Positions 32,367 to 37,769 of a DNA stretch of 64,000 bases are shown here, piece after piece. The DNA comes from Pseudomonas rubra. GTDB taxonomy: Bacteria > Pseudomonadota > Gammaproteobacteria > Pseudomonadales > Pseudomonadaceae. The translations under genes and the position numbers were made by a program. The notes under the pieces were generated by a model, which searched no databases, was not told the origin of the DNA, and saw only the letters and a list, made by a program, of their open reading frames with translations. The stretch is taken from positions 62,001 to 126,000 of the forward strand of contig NZ_JAMDGZ010000015.1 in the NCBI RefSeq assembly GCF_028656935.1. The letters run 5' to 3'. The first letter of the stretch is position 1. Each line of letters starts with the position of its first letter.

Positions 32367-33062
32367 ATGGAAGAAATCGAGCAGCACTGGCTGTACGCCC
32401 TTTCCGCCCCCATGGCCGCCCTCAACGGCGCCAGCTACACCGCTGCGACCTACTTCGAGACCTACGACGAAGATGAAACCGACCTGAAAAAATGGTGGGG
32501 CATCAACAATCGCCAGGAGTTGCTGAACATGCTCAGCATGGCCGACACCGGCCACGCCCTGGAGCTCAAGGACGCCTACTGGCAAGCTGCGCGCCGCCTA
32601 CCCAGCGAATGGCCGCAGGTGCTTGAAGCGCTGACCCCGCGCAAGTGCATCCAGTACGAGTTCGCCCGGCGCACCCTCGCCGACTGCGGCCAGGGCGGCG
32701 TGCGCGCCTGGGACCTGGGGCGCATGGGTTACCTGCTACGTGCCGGCTTGCGCAAGGGTTACCTGTCCATCGATGAAAGCCACTGGCTGCAAGGCCGCCT
32801 GGCCCTGCGTGCCCGGCACTACTACAACAGCTGGGACCGCTACCTGGCCGGCTACCTGTTTGGCAAGGCGCTATGGAACTGCTCCAGCGCCAGCGACGAA
32901 GAACTGGCCCAGAGCCTGGAGCGCCAAGGCAGCGAGCACTGGAACCGCTGCATCATGATGAACCTGAGCGATGACGCCCTGGGCTTTTTCGCCAGTATTC
33001 CCTGGGACCTGCCGCTGAACCTGCCGGAACGCCCCGACACCCTGCAAGGAGGCTGGGCATGA
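32367..33062 (+). CDS. DUF1266 protein of a chaperone gene cluster
   Basis: A 231-residue cytoplasmic protein of the DUF1266 family, recognised by WWGINNRQELLNMLSMADTG and AWDLGRMGYLLRAGLRKGYL followed by the Trp-rich SWDRYLAGYLFGKALW. The function is unknown. The ATG at 32367 (GGAG upstream) is chosen over a longer ORF. Its stop overlaps the J-protein start by 4 bases. In E. coli, as I recall, DUF1266 proteins YbeR and YbeU sit beside djlB, djlC and hscC, so the association is conserved across families. Confidence 0.87.
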   Translation: MEEIEQHWLYALSAPMAALNGASYTAATYFETYDEDETDLKKWWGINNRQELLNMLSMADTGHALELKDAYWQAARRLPSEWPQVLEALTPRKCIQYEFARRTLADCGQGGVRAWDLGRMGYLLRAGLRKGYLSIDESHWLQGRLALRARHYYNSWDRYLAGYLFGKALWNCSSASDEELAQSLERQGSEHWNRCIMMNLSDDALGFFASIPWDLPLNLPERPDTLQGGWA

Positions 33063-35758
33063 GCTGTTGGATTCGCCTGGGCATCGAGCCGACCAACGAC
33101 CCCGATGTCATCCGCGGCGCGTACCGCGCGCTGTTGCCGCAACACCACCCGGAAACCGATCCGCAAGGTTTCCAGGCCCTGCGCGAAGCCTACGAGCACG
33201 CCCTGCGCCTGGCCCGCGACGAGCAGGATGAGATCCCTGAGTTCCCTGAGCACGACGAGCCCAGACCTGCGCGCAATGCCCTGATCGAACAGACCATGAG
33301 CGACTTCGCCAAGCTGCTCGCCGACCCACGCCTGCGCTTCGACCCGCCAGCCTGGCAGGCCTTCATCGATGGCTTCAGCACCCTGACCCTGGGCGACCAG
33401 GAGCAGATCAGCTGGCACCTGATGTACAAGCTGATGGAAACCGGCCCGTTGTCGCACGCCTGCGCGCAACTGATGGCCCGTCACCTGGGCTGGGAAAACG
33501 AAGTGCTGCGCCTGGAAGATCCGCGCCAGGCCGACGAATTCCTCGAACGCATCAGCGAGCCGGACCCGTTCGACACCCGTGTGATGAAGCACTGGTCGGC
33601 AGAGGCGCAGGTTGAAGCCCTGTGGTTCGCCAGGAACCTGGATTACCTCTACCACACCCGGCCGCTGTTCGAGTTCGAAAGCTTTGTCACCCTGCACACC
33701 TGCGTGCCTTTGCCGGATGACCAGGCCTATATCCACAGCCTGCTGGTCAAGCTGTGCCAGGCCGGCATCGGCAGCCCGACCTTCTTTACCATGGTCGCCG
33801 AGCAACAACGCCAGGCACCGGACGATATCGACCTGCTGTACATGCTCGCCTGCCAGGCCAGCGACACCGATCAGGAAGAACTCGCCCGCCAGTGCTGGAC
33901 CCGCCTGTGGCGTGAACACCAGCACCCGGAAGCCGGACGCTGGTTGCTCAACCTGTGCGCCCAGCATCAACCGCAGCGCCTGCCACTGTTGATCCAAGCC
34001 CTGGACCGCCTGGAGCCAGTGCACGCATGGCCGCAAGACCTGAGCGATCCAGCGCAGATCTGGGGCAGCCCGTCGCAACGCCCGGAAACCCTGACTCGCT
34101 GGTTCGAAGCCGCACGTGACGAGTACCCGGGTATCGCTGGCGAGTTCATCAAATGGCGCCTGGACGGCAAAGACGAACTGCCGCTGCTGGCCTGGTTGCT
34201 CGACGACCAGCCGGACCGCCAACTGCACCGTCTGTACCGCCACGCCTGGGCCCTGCACCGTGGTGACAGCGGCCTGCTGCGGCAGATCCTGGACGAGCCG
34301 CTGGGTGATGACCCGCTGGACCTGCTGATCATTGAAGGCTTCAAGTACCAGGCCGAGCAACAGTTGCGCTGGCTCGAGCAGTCGCCGCTGGCCCTGGCCT
34401 TGACCGCCTTCATCAACAGCCCTTCGGCGCAGCCGCAACTGCCCGAGGTACTCTGCGATGGCAGCGGCCTGGCGGTCGCCCGTGACTGGCTACGGCGGGT
34501 GCGCAGCTACCCGGCCGCCACCCTGCCGAAACTGACCGCACGGATCAAACCGGCCAACCTGATGCCGACGCCCTTCGCCGTGCAGCTGCTTTCGGACCTC
34601 GCCGAAGCTGGTATCGAACTGCCGCGCCCGCCTGCCGACGACGGCCTGTGGACCTGGCACCGGCAGAACCTGTACATGCTTGCCCTGGTCGAGCAGCCAG
34701 AGCGCTGGCTGGCGATGGCGCCGGTGCAACTGCTGGCCAGCCTGCCGTACCCGGCCGAGCATCCGTTCAGCGGGCTGCAACAGTTGCTCCTGCAACTGCG
34801 CCAACAGCAAGGCAACGCCGACGGCCTGCTCGGCTGGCTGGACGACAACGATCCATTGCAAGCGTTTATCGGAGAGCGTCTGCTCACCGTGCAGCAAGCC
34901 CTGGACAGCAGCAAGCTGCCCAGCAACCTGAAGCTGTACGCCTGCCTGGAAAACGACCCGCGGGCCTTTGACGATGACGTGCTGGGCCTGATGGTGCTGT
35001 GCGGCGTCCTCTATCATGACCCGAGCCTGAGTGCCGAACAGCACGGCAGCCTGCTGCGGCGTATCTCCACCATGACCTGTCCGGAAGCCTGGTTCGAACC
35101 GTTTCGCAGCGGCCTGATCAAGGGCGAGCCGGTGCGCCCGCCGCGCAAGGTGCTTGAAGAAGACGAGCTGATCAACAGCACGCTGTTCTACAGCATGCTC
35201 GATACCCTCAAGGACCTGGCGCGTTACGGCAGCGCCGGGGTACCGCGGGCCAAGGTGCTCAAGGAATTGCAACGGGGCAAGGATTACCCGGGCATGGACA
35301 CCGGGATTCGCGCAGCCCTGACCGCCCTGCTGTCGTGGTCCGAGCGTCTGTTACTGGCCAATGCCGGCAGCCAGCCGGTACCGGCCAGCCATGTGTGGAA
35401 GCTGGGCAGCCGCCTGGGCCGCAAGGGCTATGCCGTGCAAGTAGTCGGTAGTGTCATTCTCGGGCCGATCCTGACCCTGATGTCCGGCAGCATGGTTGAG
35501 CAGATCTTCTTCGGCCTGCTGTTCGTCGGCCTGCTCGGCAGCGCCACACTGCGTCGCCTGCACGATATTGGCCGGGGCATCCCGATGATGATCATCTTCG
35601 TGATGCTGATCCCGTTCCTGCACTTCTTGCCGCTGGTGCTGTTGCTCCTGCCAGGTGAACCGCTGCCCAACCGTTACGGCGTGCCACCCGTCAATCAGCC
35701 CCAGGACAACCTGCAGGGTGGCCTGCAAGCCGCCCTGCGGCGGCTCAACGGTCAGTAA
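33059..35758 (+). CDS. Large membrane-anchored J-domain protein
   Basis: An 899-residue protein. Residues 1-60 are a divergent J-domain: the HPD tripeptide that stimulates Hsp70 is HPE here (LLPQHHPETDP), followed by a normal helix III (FQALREAYEHAL). The long middle (80-750) is helical and Leu/Trp-rich with no recognised domain. The C-terminal 120 residues hold about three membrane helices and a DUF805-like motif (LRRLHDIGRGIP). It is coupled to the DUF1266 gene (ATGA) and converges with hscC (7-base overlap). It probably recruits HscC to a membrane site, like E. coli DjlB/DjlC, though it is about twice their length. Confidence 0.82.
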   Translation: MSCWIRLGIEPTNDPDVIRGAYRALLPQHHPETDPQGFQALREAYEHALRLARDEQDEIPEFPEHDEPRPARNALIEQTMSDFAKLLADPRLRFDPPAWQAFIDGFSTLTLGDQEQISWHLMYKLMETGPLSHACAQLMARHLGWENEVLRLEDPRQADEFLERISEPDPFDTRVMKHWSAEAQVEALWFARNLDYLYHTRPLFEFESFVTLHTCVPLPDDQAYIHSLLVKLCQAGIGSPTFFTMVAEQQRQAPDDIDLLYMLACQASDTDQEELARQCWTRLWREHQHPEAGRWLLNLCAQHQPQRLPLLIQALDRLEPVHAWPQDLSDPAQIWGSPSQRPETLTRWFEAARDEYPGIAGEFIKWRLDGKDELPLLAWLLDDQPDRQLHRLYRHAWALHRGDSGLLRQILDEPLGDDPLDLLIIEGFKYQAEQQLRWLEQSPLALALTAFINSPSAQPQLPEVLCDGSGLAVARDWLRRVRSYPAATLPKLTARIKPANLMPTPFAVQLLSDLAEAGIELPRPPADDGLWTWHRQNLYMLALVEQPERWLAMAPVQLLASLPYPAEHPFSGLQQLLLQLRQQQGNADGLLGWLDDNDPLQAFIGERLLTVQQALDSSKLPSNLKLYACLENDPRAFDDDVLGLMVLCGVLYHDPSLSAEQHGSLLRRISTMTCPEAWFEPFRSGLIKGEPVRPPRKVLEEDELINSTLFYSMLDTLKDLARYGSAGVPRAKVLKELQRGKDYPGMDTGIRAALTALLSWSERLLLANAGSQPVPASHVWKLGSRLGRKGYAVQVVGSVILGPILTLMSGSMVEQIFFGLLFVGLLGSATLRRLHDIGRGIPMMIIFVMLIPFLHFLPLVLLLLPGEPLPNRYGVPPVNQPQDNLQGGLQAALRRLNGQ

Positions 35759-37443
35759 CGCATGTCGTCCAGCGCCTCGATGAGGCGCTGGCGAGCGCCG
35801 GCGATCTCGCTCGACTCCTGGCCGGAAAGGATCGCGCTGAATTCGTTGAGCCAGTCACCGATCGCATCACGTTCAGCCCCCAGGCTCTGTGCCCAGGCCC
35901 TTTCCAGACGCGCCAGCAAGGTACGGTTGGGCAAGGCGTCGCGCGGGTGGATTTTCAGCCCGGCCAGGCGCTCATGGCTGGCTTGGCGCGCCGCTTCATC
36001 AAGCCCGGTGGGGCTGCGATCAATCACATGGCTGAACTGCTCGCCGGTGCCCGGCAAGGTGACATCGACCTCCAGCAGGCCATTGATGTCATAGCTAAAG
36101 CGCACATCCAGGCGCTGGATCTTGCCGTTCGGGGTCAGCGGGATCTTGAAGGAGTCGACAAAGATATTGTCTTCGACCCAGGGCCGTTCACCTTGGTAGA
36201 CGCGGATACCGATCACCTTCTGGTCAACGTGGGTGCTGTAGAACGGCTTGATCCGTGAGGTAGGGATCACGGTATTGCGGTCGATGATCGGCGCAAAGAT
36301 CTCGGTCTGGTATTCACCATCCATCGCGGCGATACCCAGGGTGTAGGGGCAGACATCGGTGAGGATCAACTCTTCGATCGCCGAATCGCGCGCCTTGCAC
36401 GCCGCCTGGGTGGCGGCACCGAGGGCAACAATGGTGTCCGGGTCGAGGTGGCGGTAAGGCAGGCGGCCAAACAGAGTGGAGACCATCTGCTGGATCACCG
36501 GCATGCGCGTGGCGCCACCGACCAGCACCAAGCTGTCAAGGTCGCTGGCACGCAGGCGGGCATCGCGCAGGGCCTGCTCGATCGGTGCACGAATGCGCGC
36601 CAGCAACGGCGCCCAGATCTGCTGCGCGCGGGCTTCATCGAGCGACCACTGGCGGCTGATGCCGTCACCGTTCCAGCTCAGGTGCTGCTCGCCCGCGCCC
36701 AGCTTGCATTTGAGCTGCTCGATGGCATCGGCAAGGCTGGCCAGGGCCTGGGGTGCAAGCATTGCAGGTTTGAGTTGCCAGTCTTGCAGGCAGGCCTGGA
36801 GCAAGGCGGCGGTAAAGTCTTCGCCACCGAGGAAGTTGTCGCCGGTCGAGGCATGCACCTCGATCAACGGCAGCGCGTATTCCAGCACCGTGACGTCAAA
36901 CGTGCCGCCACCGAGGTCGAAGATCAGCGTGCGTTCGAACTTCTGCTCGTGCAGGCCGTAGGCCATCGCGGCGGCAGTCGGTTCATTGATCAGGCGCTGG
37001 ACTTTTAGCCCGGCAAGTTCGGCGGCAAAGCTGGTGCGCTTACGCTGCTCGTCGCTGAAATAGGCCGGCACGGAAATCACCGCCTCGCTGATCGGGCAGC
37101 CGAGGAAGGCTTCGGCATCGGCCTTGAGGGCGCCAAGCACCAGCGCCGAAAGTTCTTCGGGGCTGAAGGCCTGCTCACCGAGGTTGATTTTTTTCTCGCT
37201 GCCCATGAAGCGCTTGAAGGCGGCGGCGGTGCGCTGCGGATGAGTGGTCAGGCGTGAGCGGGCGGCCTTGCCGACCAGGATGCTGCCGTCTTCATCGATG
37301 CTCACCACCGAAGGGGTGAGCATGTCGCCCAGGGCATTGGGAATCAGCTGGGCCCGGCCATCTTGCCAGACTGCCACCAGGCTGTTGGTGGTACCCAGGT
37401 CGATACCCAGCATTGGCGCCGGGGAAGTGCTTGCATCCTGCAT
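35752..37443 (-). CDS. hscC: HscC-type Hsp70 chaperone
   Basis: A 563-residue Hsp70 of the HscC group. The ATPase domain (1-375) has GIDLGTTNSLVAVW, NEPTAAAMAYG, FDLGGGTFDVTVL and VGGATRMPVIQ. The substrate domain begins around TDVCPYTLGIA and is followed by a short lid, so the protein is shorter than DnaK (about 640) and lacks the EEVD-like tail, as HscC does. It is convergent with the J-protein gene, which may supply its co-chaperone. The start MQDASTSP at 37443 is preferred to an upstream in-frame start. Its clients are unknown. Confidence 0.92.
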   Translation of the reverse strand: MQDASTSPAPMLGIDLGTTNSLVAVWQDGRAQLIPNALGDMLTPSVVSIDEDGSILVGKAARSRLTTHPQRTAAAFKRFMGSEKKINLGEQAFSPEELSALVLGALKADAEAFLGCPISEAVISVPAYFSDEQRKRTSFAAELAGLKVQRLINEPTAAAMAYGLHEQKFERTLIFDLGGGTFDVTVLEYALPLIEVHASTGDNFLGGEDFTAALLQACLQDWQLKPAMLAPQALASLADAIEQLKCKLGAGEQHLSWNGDGISRQWSLDEARAQQIWAPLLARIRAPIEQALRDARLRASDLDSLVLVGGATRMPVIQQMVSTLFGRLPYRHLDPDTIVALGAATQAACKARDSAIEELILTDVCPYTLGIAAMDGEYQTEIFAPIIDRNTVIPTSRIKPFYSTHVDQKVIGIRVYQGERPWVEDNIFVDSFKIPLTPNGKIQRLDVRFSYDINGLLEVDVTLPGTGEQFSHVIDRSPTGLDEAARQASHERLAGLKIHPRDALPNRTLLARLERAWAQSLGAERDAIGDWLNEFSAILSGQESSEIAGARQRLIEALDDMRY

Positions 37444-37600: not shown

Positions 37601-37677
37601 TGGCGCAGCGGACGGGACTCGAACCCGCGACCCCCGGCGTGACAGGCCGGTATTCTAACCGACTGAACTACCGCTGC
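37601..37677 (-). tRNA. tRNA-Asp (GTC)
   Basis: 77 bases including an encoded CCA. The seven-base acceptor stem GCAGCGG/CCGCTGC is perfect. The anticodon loop CCTGTCACG reads GTC; D-loop TTCAGTCGGTTAGAA and T-loop GGGTTCGAGTCCC match bacterial tRNA-Asp. Confidence 0.97.
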
Positions 37678-37693
37678 GCTATACACTGAGAAG

Positions 37694-37769
37694 TGGTGGG
37701 TGATGACGGGATCGAACCGCCGACCCTCTGCTTGTAAGGCAGATGCTCTCCCAGCTGAGCTAATCACCC
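37694..37769 (-). tRNA. tRNA-Val (TAC)
   Basis: 76 bases with CCA encoded. Acceptor stem GGGTGAT/ATCACCC; anticodon loop CCTTACAAG gives TAC; T-arm GGCGGTTCGATCCCGTC. Nearly identical to E. coli tRNA-Val. It is first in the two-tRNA transcript, 16 bases before tRNA-Asp. Confidence 0.97.

Follow-up and report, generated by a model that had tools for sequence, protein, structure and literature searches.

HscC is the least understood of the three Hsp70s of E. coli. In K-12 it is encoded at a locus where two gene pairs, ybeR-djlB and ybeU-djlC (djlC presumably being the gene also named hscD), each share a 4-bp overlap, with ybeT lying between them, and where djlC converges on hscC, i.e., two pairs of a DUF1266 gene and a J-protein gene for one hscC. 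Across 5426 E. coli genomes, hscC was counted in 4346, djlC in 4341 and ybeU in 4227 (totals only, a gene being counted as present when a genomic place covered at least 80% of it); because ybeU is found in 114–119 fewer genomes than djlC and hscC, an intact ybeU seems to be absent from some strains that retain hscC-djlC. The ATPase of HscC is reported to be stimulated by DjlC, which itself reportedly resides within the plasma membrane (PMC8215388, the latter citing Peschke 2018). According to reviews, cells become more sensitive to Cd2+ when they lack either HscC or both DjlB and DjlC, and the mechanism behind the Cd2+ and UV phenotypes of HscC was called unknown in a 2021 review.

The first result of our analysis is that, judged by homology, the module in our window (the whole 64,000-nucleotide stretch of Pseudomonas rubra DNA that was analysed) is the Pseudomonas form of this E. 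coli hscC-djlB-djlC locus. The E. coli parallel that the first-pass annotation had pointed to is thus real, and it goes further than resemblance since the two loci are homologous. By the same token, the suggestion that the window might hold an entirely undescribed system is ruled out: E. coli HscC with DjlB/DjlC is known, including the HPE motif and the membrane anchor. A description of DUF1266 as a constant third component was not found in the literature searched, although J-protein phylogenomics may already describe the DUF1266 link or HscC-linked variants of the J-motif. The proposal that DUF1266, J-protein and HscC form a recurring module is borne out, as the same trio is present in Pseudomonas, in E. 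coli K-12 and on a plasmid of Erwinia persicina.

The three genes are tightly packed, and their coordinates and both overlaps are as first described. The DUF1266 gene (32367..33062, + strand) encodes a 231-aa homologue of E. coli YbeR/YbeU, which matches Pfam PF06889 with an E value of 8.7e-28 (98.1 bits for a cut-off of 27) and is 36% identical to YbeU (84/231). Its stop codon overlaps the start of the J-protein gene by 4 bp, in an ATGA (33059..33062, + strand). The J-protein gene (33059..35758, + strand) encodes an 899-aa, giant homologue of DjlB/DjlC, and its 3' end shares 7 bp (35752–35758) with that of the convergent type I hscC (35752..37443, − strand; 563 aa).

The J-protein is of the DjlB/DjlC type, as it combines an HPE J-domain with N-terminal homology to these proteins (32% identity to DjlC over approximately the first 330 aa). 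HPE is found, in both the translation and the DNA, at the position of HPD in the J-domain (H30-P31-E32; 33146..33154, + strand). With HPE instead of HPD and a score of 18.6 bits for a Pfam cut-off of 27.8, the protein falls outside PF00226, and the J-domains of E. coli DjlB and DjlC are likewise under this cut-off (21.1 and 19.3 bits). The J-domain is followed by a middle region (aa 56–771; 33224..35371, + strand) that is predicted to be helical from the secondary structure of a low-confidence model. Within this region, most of aa 446–771 is missing in a natural 562-aa version of the protein at locus L037, as seen by BLASTP against the window protein. The C terminus is a putative DUF805-like membrane domain (aa 772–882; 35372..35704, + strand), in which a match to PF05656 (E 7.9e-9, aa 804–874) coincides with three hydrophobic segments identified by hydropathy (aa 792–810, 813–831 and 845–863). 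Profile and hydropathy thus both predict a C-terminal membrane anchor, which upholds the membrane link proposed in the first-pass annotation and is in keeping with the reported location of DjlC (PMC8215388). Among solved structures, the J-protein matched CbpA J-domains alone (E 0.05), and its AlphaFold2 model is too poor for fold or interface (pLDDT 42.8), as is that of DUF1266 (pLDDT 49.6).

HscC from the window matches the HSP70 profile with an E value of 1.4e-121 and is of the HscC type, as indicated by 55% identity to E. coli HscC and by its grouping in the tree. Its length is within the HscC range (~550–580 aa), and it displays deletions relative to DnaK: 23 of 26 positions are gapped at 76–101, 208–211 are gapped, and a 6-residue gap is placed at approximately DnaK 286–291, near the GrpE signature (290–295 in the numbering of a review, PMC8215388). 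E. coli HscC shows similar gaps at 76–101 and ~286–291 in the alignment, and the one type II HscC row that we inspected has the same gaps as the window protein.

The second result is a strict association between DUF1266 and one subtype of HscC. A survey of 199 Pseudomonas genomes revealed two HscC subtypes, with 35 type I and 61 type II copies, and both types in 9 genomes. At type I loci, a convergent DUF1266 gene lies 1.75–3.04 kb from hscC in 35/35 cases, the J-protein has HPE and not HPD in all 35, and the 4-bp overlap between DUF1266 and J-protein genes is present every time; overall, this overlap was detected at 36 of 37 loci tried, the 37th (Erwinia) having it per annotation. At type II loci, DUF1266 is found within 10 kb of hscC in 0/61 cases, and the J-protein has RPD in 59/61. 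All 35 DUF1266 matches of at least 86 bits in the 199 genomes are at type I hscC loci, and the other 13 (22–77 bits) are away from them. The co-occurrence predicted from the window alone therefore holds for type I, where the trio recurs without exception, and fails for type II, so that DUF1266 cannot serve as a general marker for HscC and is not part of HscC systems as a rule. A more common companion of HscC is an adjoining J-protein gene, whose J-motif was read in 124 of the 128 HscC loci fetched; the motif pattern has a fixed motif-to-F spacing and is blind to ordinary HPD J-domains, which were searched separately. HPE is not confined to type I, since genome G720 (locus L156) has an HPE J-protein without DUF1266 in the stretch read. 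The settings of the module vary, with an adjoining tRNA-Val/Asp in 5 and a nearby tRNA-Ala/Glu in 7 of 15 loci scanned; a contig scan with a single protein query recovered only 4 Pseudomonas loci. A phage or defence origin is not supported: the trio has no PADLOC match, DUF1266 and the J-protein have no match in PHROGs, and no relatives of DUF1266 were found in viral contigs.

Chance is ruled out as an explanation for this recurrence. However, type I loci are kin by descent and are not independent cases, and the HscC tree needs two changes, so that 35/35 does not represent 35 independent events. Type I HscC proteins fall into a single clade, which spans Pseudomonas, E. coli and the Erwinia plasmid and has an SH-aLRT of 100, in a tree with 13 type I rows in the clade, DnaK as outgroup and HscA absent. 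The DUF1266 proteins of type I loci likewise form a subfamily, i.e., one clade with YbeR/YbeU (support 99/99) in a tree from which two rows with very long branches (L063 and L164) were left out. The tie between DUF1266 and type I HscC is thus largely a single event inherited through one clade. One more locus with DUF1266 next to the J-protein of an HscC is that of G244, which probably arose separately; here the order is hscC, J-protein, DUF1266, on one strand throughout, and DUF1266 again adjoins the J-protein. Median identity to the window proteins is 49% for DUF1266, 52% for the J-protein and 76% for HscC (36 loci, L088 being left out), i.e., DUF1266 and the J-protein diverge at similar rates. 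All three genes are under purifying selection, which we claim only from the near relative L012 (dN/dS of 0.12 for DUF1266, 0.19 for the J-protein and 0.05 for HscC) and from L055 (0.29, 0.27 and 0.15, respectively); values for L058, L048 and L049 were set aside because of trimming or divergence, and these reach 0.70 for the J-protein and 0.91 for DUF1266 (over 18 aa), both in L048.

How might these components work together? The reading that we favor, at a probability of roughly 55%, is an HscC machine anchored in the membrane, in which the J-protein would have DUF1266 as its translationally coupled partner or modulator. The J-protein would be held in the inner membrane through its C-terminal DUF805-like segment, while its long helical scaffold would extend into the cytoplasm and collect clients, which may then be loaded at the membrane, and its HPE J-domain would trigger ATP hydrolysis in HscC, not in DnaK. 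DUF1266, made just ahead of the J-protein by virtue of the 4-bp stop/start overlap, would most likely be a soluble subunit that attaches to the J-protein and governs the timing or the target of HscC loading, in the manner of CbpM on CbpA. We infer a J-protein partner since DUF1266 tracks the J-protein and not HscC, as seen from the two DUF1266–J-protein pairs that accompany a single hscC in E. coli and from G244, where the adjacency persists despite the altered gene order. The strict linkage, the duplication of DUF1266 alongside the J-protein and the similar rates of change would fit equally well if DUF1266 were a client that needs the J-protein and HscC to fold or be delivered, its gene being kept with those of its chaperones, as for IscU, a client kept with HscA/HscB. 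That DUF1266 is a client nevertheless seems doubtful, because it has no hydrophobic segment by hydropathy, because family members elsewhere (solitary, doubled or fused to TPR) are at loci without HscC nearby, which suggests that the fold itself does not need HscC, and because a large J-protein scaffold would be odd for one small client.

Conservation within DUF1266 raises the further question of whether it is an enzyme with its own job that is merely co-transcribed with the J-protein. In an alignment of 37 sequences, 50 positions are invariant in all or all but one, including H63, C107, D116, R119, R144 and several tryptophans, and a table of transcripts annotates E. coli ybeU-hscD as "predicted tRNA ligase and chaperone" (PMC5797941). 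We consider this quite improbable, since DUF1266 has no match among solved structures (best E 0.92), no Pfam family other than PF06889 and no hit among NCBIfam families at E 0.1, the two TPR fusions seen hint at protein-protein contacts, and its strict association with a pair of chaperone genes would be left unexplained. Least likely, though by a small margin, is an action of DUF1266 on HscC, for example as a nucleotide-exchange or release factor replacing GrpE, which HscC is not expected to use: the gaps near the GrpE signature and at 76–101 would leave room for another factor, but the type II row has the same gaps and type II lacks DUF1266, a review argues that HscC should release nucleotide quickly unaided (PMC8215388), and E. 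coli has two DUF1266 proteins for a single HscC, each encoded next to a J-protein.

Another aspect of these loci concerns how HscC and its J-proteins recognize each other. In DnaK, R167 pairs with the HPD aspartate. The corresponding HscC residue is R with HPE partners, mostly K with RPD partners (in Pseudomonas), and T or S in five loci in which the J-motif has no acid, these five co-losses collapsing on the tree into no more than two events (a single clade, and L042). Strict covariation between the acid and position 167 is broken by Eleftheria (DPQ, R), Variovorax (DQG, R) and L127 (RPG, K). A bolder and at present unlikely scenario is that the HscC branch gave up the HPD code, its partners having HPE, RPD or no HPD-like motif and position 167 partly shifting with them, and that type I DUF1266 would be an obligate third subunit completing or gating a weak J-domain, which would make it a new class of J-protein regulator. 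These natural HPE, RPD and HPD-less partners make the reach of the HPD rule testable with natural protein pairs. The constant third component points to two E. coli genes, ybeR and ybeU, and provides a concrete hypothesis for the function of DUF1266, none having been found in the DUF1266 literature consulted.

Comparison with known systems highlights important similarities and differences. The window shares with E. coli hscC-djlB-djlC its gene order, orientation, 4-bp overlap, HPE motif and a membrane-anchored J-protein. The main differences are that DjlB and DjlC have 475 and 483 aa and one hydrophobic tail segment, whereas the window J-protein, with 899 aa and a three-segment DUF805-like domain, departs from this ~480-aa, single-tail-anchor form, and that E. 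coli has two DUF1266–J-protein pairs and djlC and hscC that do not overlap, whereas the window has one pair and a J-protein gene overlapping hscC. In Pseudomonas type II, HscC is approximately 50% identical to window HscC and a divergent J-protein adjoins it, which, where inspected, also has hydrophobic segments; however, the type II J-protein gene is downstream on the same strand without DUF1266, whereas that of type I is convergent, has HPE and comes with DUF1266. Since 9 genomes have both, the two types are not simple replacements for each other. In CbpA-CbpM, where cbpM adjoins cbpA, a small protein acts on one J-protein, which may be a functional analogy, drawn from gene order only. CbpM dimers form an inhibitory complex with CbpA J-domains, according to a figure legend (PMC8215388). 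No sequence relation of CbpM to DUF1266 was found (a Pfam scan gave DUF1266 alone), and the partner of CbpA is DnaK. HscA-HscB, in which the GrpE signature is reported lost (PMC8215388), is, like the window system, a dedicated Hsp70 with a dedicated J-protein, but window HscC scores far under the cut-off of the HscA model (376 versus 708.55 bits), which sets the two systems apart.

The three genes of the module at 32367-37443 are tightly packed, and the ATGA overlap and the convergence with hscC reported in the first-pass annotation are present. The DUF1266 gene (starting at 32367; 231 aa; Pfam E 8.7e-28) and the J-protein gene share the ATGA at 33059-33062, which holds the stop of the former and the start of the latter, and the 3' ends of the J-protein gene (899 aa, with a C-terminal DUF805 domain, Pfam E 7.9e-9) and of the convergent hscC (563 aa; Pfam HSP70, E 1.4e-121), which closes the module at 37443, have 7 bp in common. 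Directly past hscC lie tRNA-Asp and tRNA-Val (37601-37769). The J-domain carries HPE rather than HPD and scores 18.6 bits, below the Pfam cut-off of 27.8. Since the J-domains of E. coli DjlB and DjlC likewise fall under the cut-off, standard annotation can miss such J-proteins; the copy on an Erwinia plasmid is annotated as a "hypothetical protein." The J-protein of P. wadenswilerensis (L012) is 90% identical to that of the window. In another near relative, P. donghuensis HYS (L013, a draft genome taken to be G007), the J-protein matches in two pieces, residues 1-774 and 777-899, which may reflect either an error in the sequence or a genuine break.

The module, which had been put forward as a candidate for an undescribed system, is a member of a known one, because the E. 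coli locus is homologous; the parallel drawn in the first-pass annotation, of DUF1266 proteins beside djlB, djlC, and hscC, was correct. K-12 has, in order, ybeR-djlB, ybeT (on the opposite strand), ybeU-djlC, and then hscC, convergent, with 4-bp overlaps in both ybeR/djlB and ybeU/djlC. Window DUF1266 is 36% identical to YbeU, the J-protein 32% identical to DjlC across approximately its first 330 residues, and HscC 55% identical to its E. coli counterpart, and both DjlB and DjlC also carry HPE. The name hscD is presumably a synonym of djlC. In the literature, ybeU-djlC is described as one operon (PMC6469107), that operon is listed as ybeU-hscD (PMC5797941), and HPE is described as seemingly the sole tolerated replacement of HPD, tied to HscC, with the E. 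coli pair reading HPE (PMC13254874, a 2026 review). Among 5426 complete E. coli genomes searched by megablast, counting those in which a single place spans 80% or more of the gene, the totals form two sets—hscC (4346), djlC (4341), and ybeU (4227), then ybeR (3774) and djlB (3679)—although they are not cross-tabulated, and the last two may be too low owing to divergence. The whole stretch is present in 3635 genomes, and in some copies (matches H58, H64, H67, and H70) IS1 lies inside the match.

Co-occurrence of the three families had been proposed as a check, and in 199 Pseudomonas genomes it holds for one HscC subtype and fails for the other. HscC (E <= 1e-120) occurs in 85 genomes as 96 copies, which split cleanly by score against window HscC into 35 type I (868-1252 bits) and 61 type II copies (519-567 bits); 35 genomes have type I, 59 have type II, and nine have both. 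DUF1266 is found in 43 genomes, in 41 above the family cut-off. Every type I copy (35/35) has a convergent DUF1266 gene on the opposite strand, 1.75-3.04 kb off, whereas none of the 61 type II copies has one within 10 kb. The linked DUF1266 matches score 86.7-118.3 bits, and the 13 unlinked ones at most 77 bits. Of 37 loci tried (33 survey loci, L012, L014, L015, and Erwinia), 36 showed the 4-bp DUF1266/J-protein overlap, and Erwinia, the 37th, has it by annotation. The J-proteins of these loci measure 875-905 aa, except for that of L037 (562 aa), which aligns with residues 1-445 and 772-882 of the window protein but is missing most of the intervening stretch. Of 15 type I loci scanned, five, like the window, adjoin tRNA-Val/Asp, seven lie near tRNA-Ala or tRNA-Glu, and three have no tRNA in the stretch; these genes may mark sites of insertion. 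At type II loci (L089-L144, L031, L038, L039, L040, and L047), the J-gene shares the hscC strand and mostly encodes RPD, with two consecutive RPD J-genes at L039, L104, and L135, and RPD plus RLD at L132.

The J-motifs read beside HscC depart from HPD. Nine control J-proteins of one orthologue group, which we take to be CbpA-like, and E. coli DnaJ all have HPD, whereas it occurs in none of the 124 readable motifs among 128 fetched loci (the window not counted; L033, L126, L159, and L160 were not readable). Type I has HPE in 35/35 (for G007, read from L013), and type II has RPD in 59/61, with RPG once (L127) and none found once (L126), the J-gene being on the hscC strand. Besides these, we found GPE, RPE, NPE, KPE, DVE, DIE, DQE, DQV, DPA, DQA, DPQ, DQG, and GRT, the register of the D-Q type being set by the search pattern and possibly off by one. 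A separate search of the 128 loci for HPD J-domains within 4.5 kb of HscC gave one, at L033, in a gene located on the opposite flank of hscC. At L126, L159, and L160, no J-gene was read next to hscC; the last two loci come from a single genome (G831), whose two HscC copies lie on short contigs. According to PMC8215388, ATPase stimulation was lost in all systems tested once H or D of HPD was replaced (by Q or N), and D35 of HPD contacts R167 and Q378 of DnaK. The R167 position is R in 37/37 type I HscC, as in E. coli and Erwinia; across type II (the 61 copies and L030, from a sister genus) it is K in 54/62 and R in 8/62. Among 12 other rows, R is found in that of genome G244, and the other 11 have R (six), T (three), or S (two); 16 rows added later have R (15) or K (one). 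T or S goes with DQV, DQV, DPA, DQA, and GRT, and these five rows represent at most two events on the HscC tree; at these loci (L035, L042, L043, L044, and L045, family f23) the adjacent J-motif has no acidic third residue. A lockstep loss of that acid and of R167 is broken by Eleftheria (DPQ, R), Variovorax (DQG, R), and L127 (RPG, K).

How often did DUF1266 join HscC? In the HscC tree (52 rows, quick method), the 13 type I rows (Pseudomonas, Erwinia, and E. coli) group as a single clade (SH-aLRT 100) containing no row without DUF1266; in the DUF1266 tree (23 rows), a single clade (99/99) unites the 13 HscC-linked rows, with DUF1266 of G244 outside. Since both trees require two changes of the linkage label, the 35/35 reflects mainly one old association retained, together with a probable second joining. 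Taken by themselves, the strongly supported branches would be compatible with fewer than two changes, and 1% of 200 DUF1266 bootstrap trees need only one. The likely second joining of DUF1266 with an HscC J-protein, in G244, is one case on a long branch; its order (hscC, J-protein with GPE, DUF1266) differs from type I, and in both arrangements DUF1266 adjoins the J-protein. The samples taken beyond Pseudomonas partly overlap. Across the phylum (249 genomes), HscC (E <= 1e-120) and DUF1266 each occur in 10 genomes and together in five, linked in three (G000, G227, and G244) and on different contigs in G183 and G233. The family of G244 (160 genomes; E. coli HscC as query) has HscC in seven, DUF1266 in five, and both in G244 only. 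The class sample (303 genomes) has seven with HscC (E <= 1e-110) and seven with DUF1266. Two genomes, G000 and G867, have both, and in G867 they lie on two short contigs that give no indication of being linked.

Among plasmid records, 35 have HscC (E <= 1e-100) and 12 a YbeU-like DUF1266; 11 have both by accession (seven E. coli, several of them exceeding 1 million bases, and four Erwinia persicina). The other 24 HscC records show at most 50.6% identity to window HscC, and the match in the twelfth DUF1266 record stops 4 bases short of the record end. The E. persicina ML2-2023-5 plasmid carries the entire module (J-protein of 887 aa), and from this copy and the differing tRNA settings we infer that the module has moved as a unit. 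On the E. persicina Cp2 plasmid (L068:8678-11337), the J-protein is annotated as several short pieces, and the hscC match is in four.

DUF1266 also occurs in other settings. A second cassette, with no HscC in the stretch (G000:C9:13000-23000, i.e., L059; L066; L067), has genes for 785-aa, 409-aa, and 218-aa (DUF1266) proteins, arranged alike in three genomes that belong to two families, with identities of 48/61/54% between L059 and L067; Pfam gave nothing beyond a weak TPR match for the 785-aa and 409-aa family proteins of L059 and L066. One family of the same taxonomic order (L063, L064, and L065) has proteins of 760-821 aa that each contain two DUF1266 domains. DUF1266-TPR fusions in two genomes of one genus (L158:942-2186 and L163:3298-4512) hint at a role in protein-protein contacts. 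In the module, DUF1266 is soluble by hydropathy, its overlap with the J-gene is of the kind seen in translationally coupled genes, and in E. coli it is duplicated together with the J-protein. Median identity to the window over 36 loci is 49% for DUF1266, 52% for the J-protein, and 76% for HscC, and pairwise identities correlate at 0.917 (DUF1266-J-protein), 0.886 (J-protein-HscC), and 0.859 (DUF1266-HscC), values that differ little and share descent. The overlap, the joint duplication, and the like pace of divergence favor, at the sequence level, DUF1266 as a partner of the J-protein, which it may gate, aim, or inhibit, rather than of HscC. We found no tie to HscC in the accessible portions of the literature mentioning DUF1266, nor a DUF1266-HscC link in those on ybeU/ybeR/hscC/djl, cadmium, or HPE, although an earlier description is possible; PMC6935094 groups YbeR, DjlB, YbeU, and DjlC only as poorly characterized, with predicted host interactions.

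What is reported for E. coli suggests how the module might work. HscC is listed as slightly lowered under Cd (-0.45; PMC8651089), which gives no support for its induction by Cd, and overexpression of HscC is reported to reduce the activity of sigma70-dependent promoters, with the protein co-eluting with sigma70 (PMC3861889). Strains lacking hscC, or both djlB and djlC, are more sensitive to Cd2+ (PMC8215388). On a P. oryzihabitans plasmid (L167), hscC and an RPD J-gene adjoin copper/heavy-metal regulatory genes, a single case whose setting fits this phenotype. The source for that phenotype also reports that HscC is stimulated by DjlC, not by DnaJ, CbpA, or HscB, and that DjlC is located in the plasma membrane (PMC8215388). 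Together with the anatomy of the proteins, these E. coli reports suggest that a membrane-bound J-protein would load HscC onto clients at the membrane.
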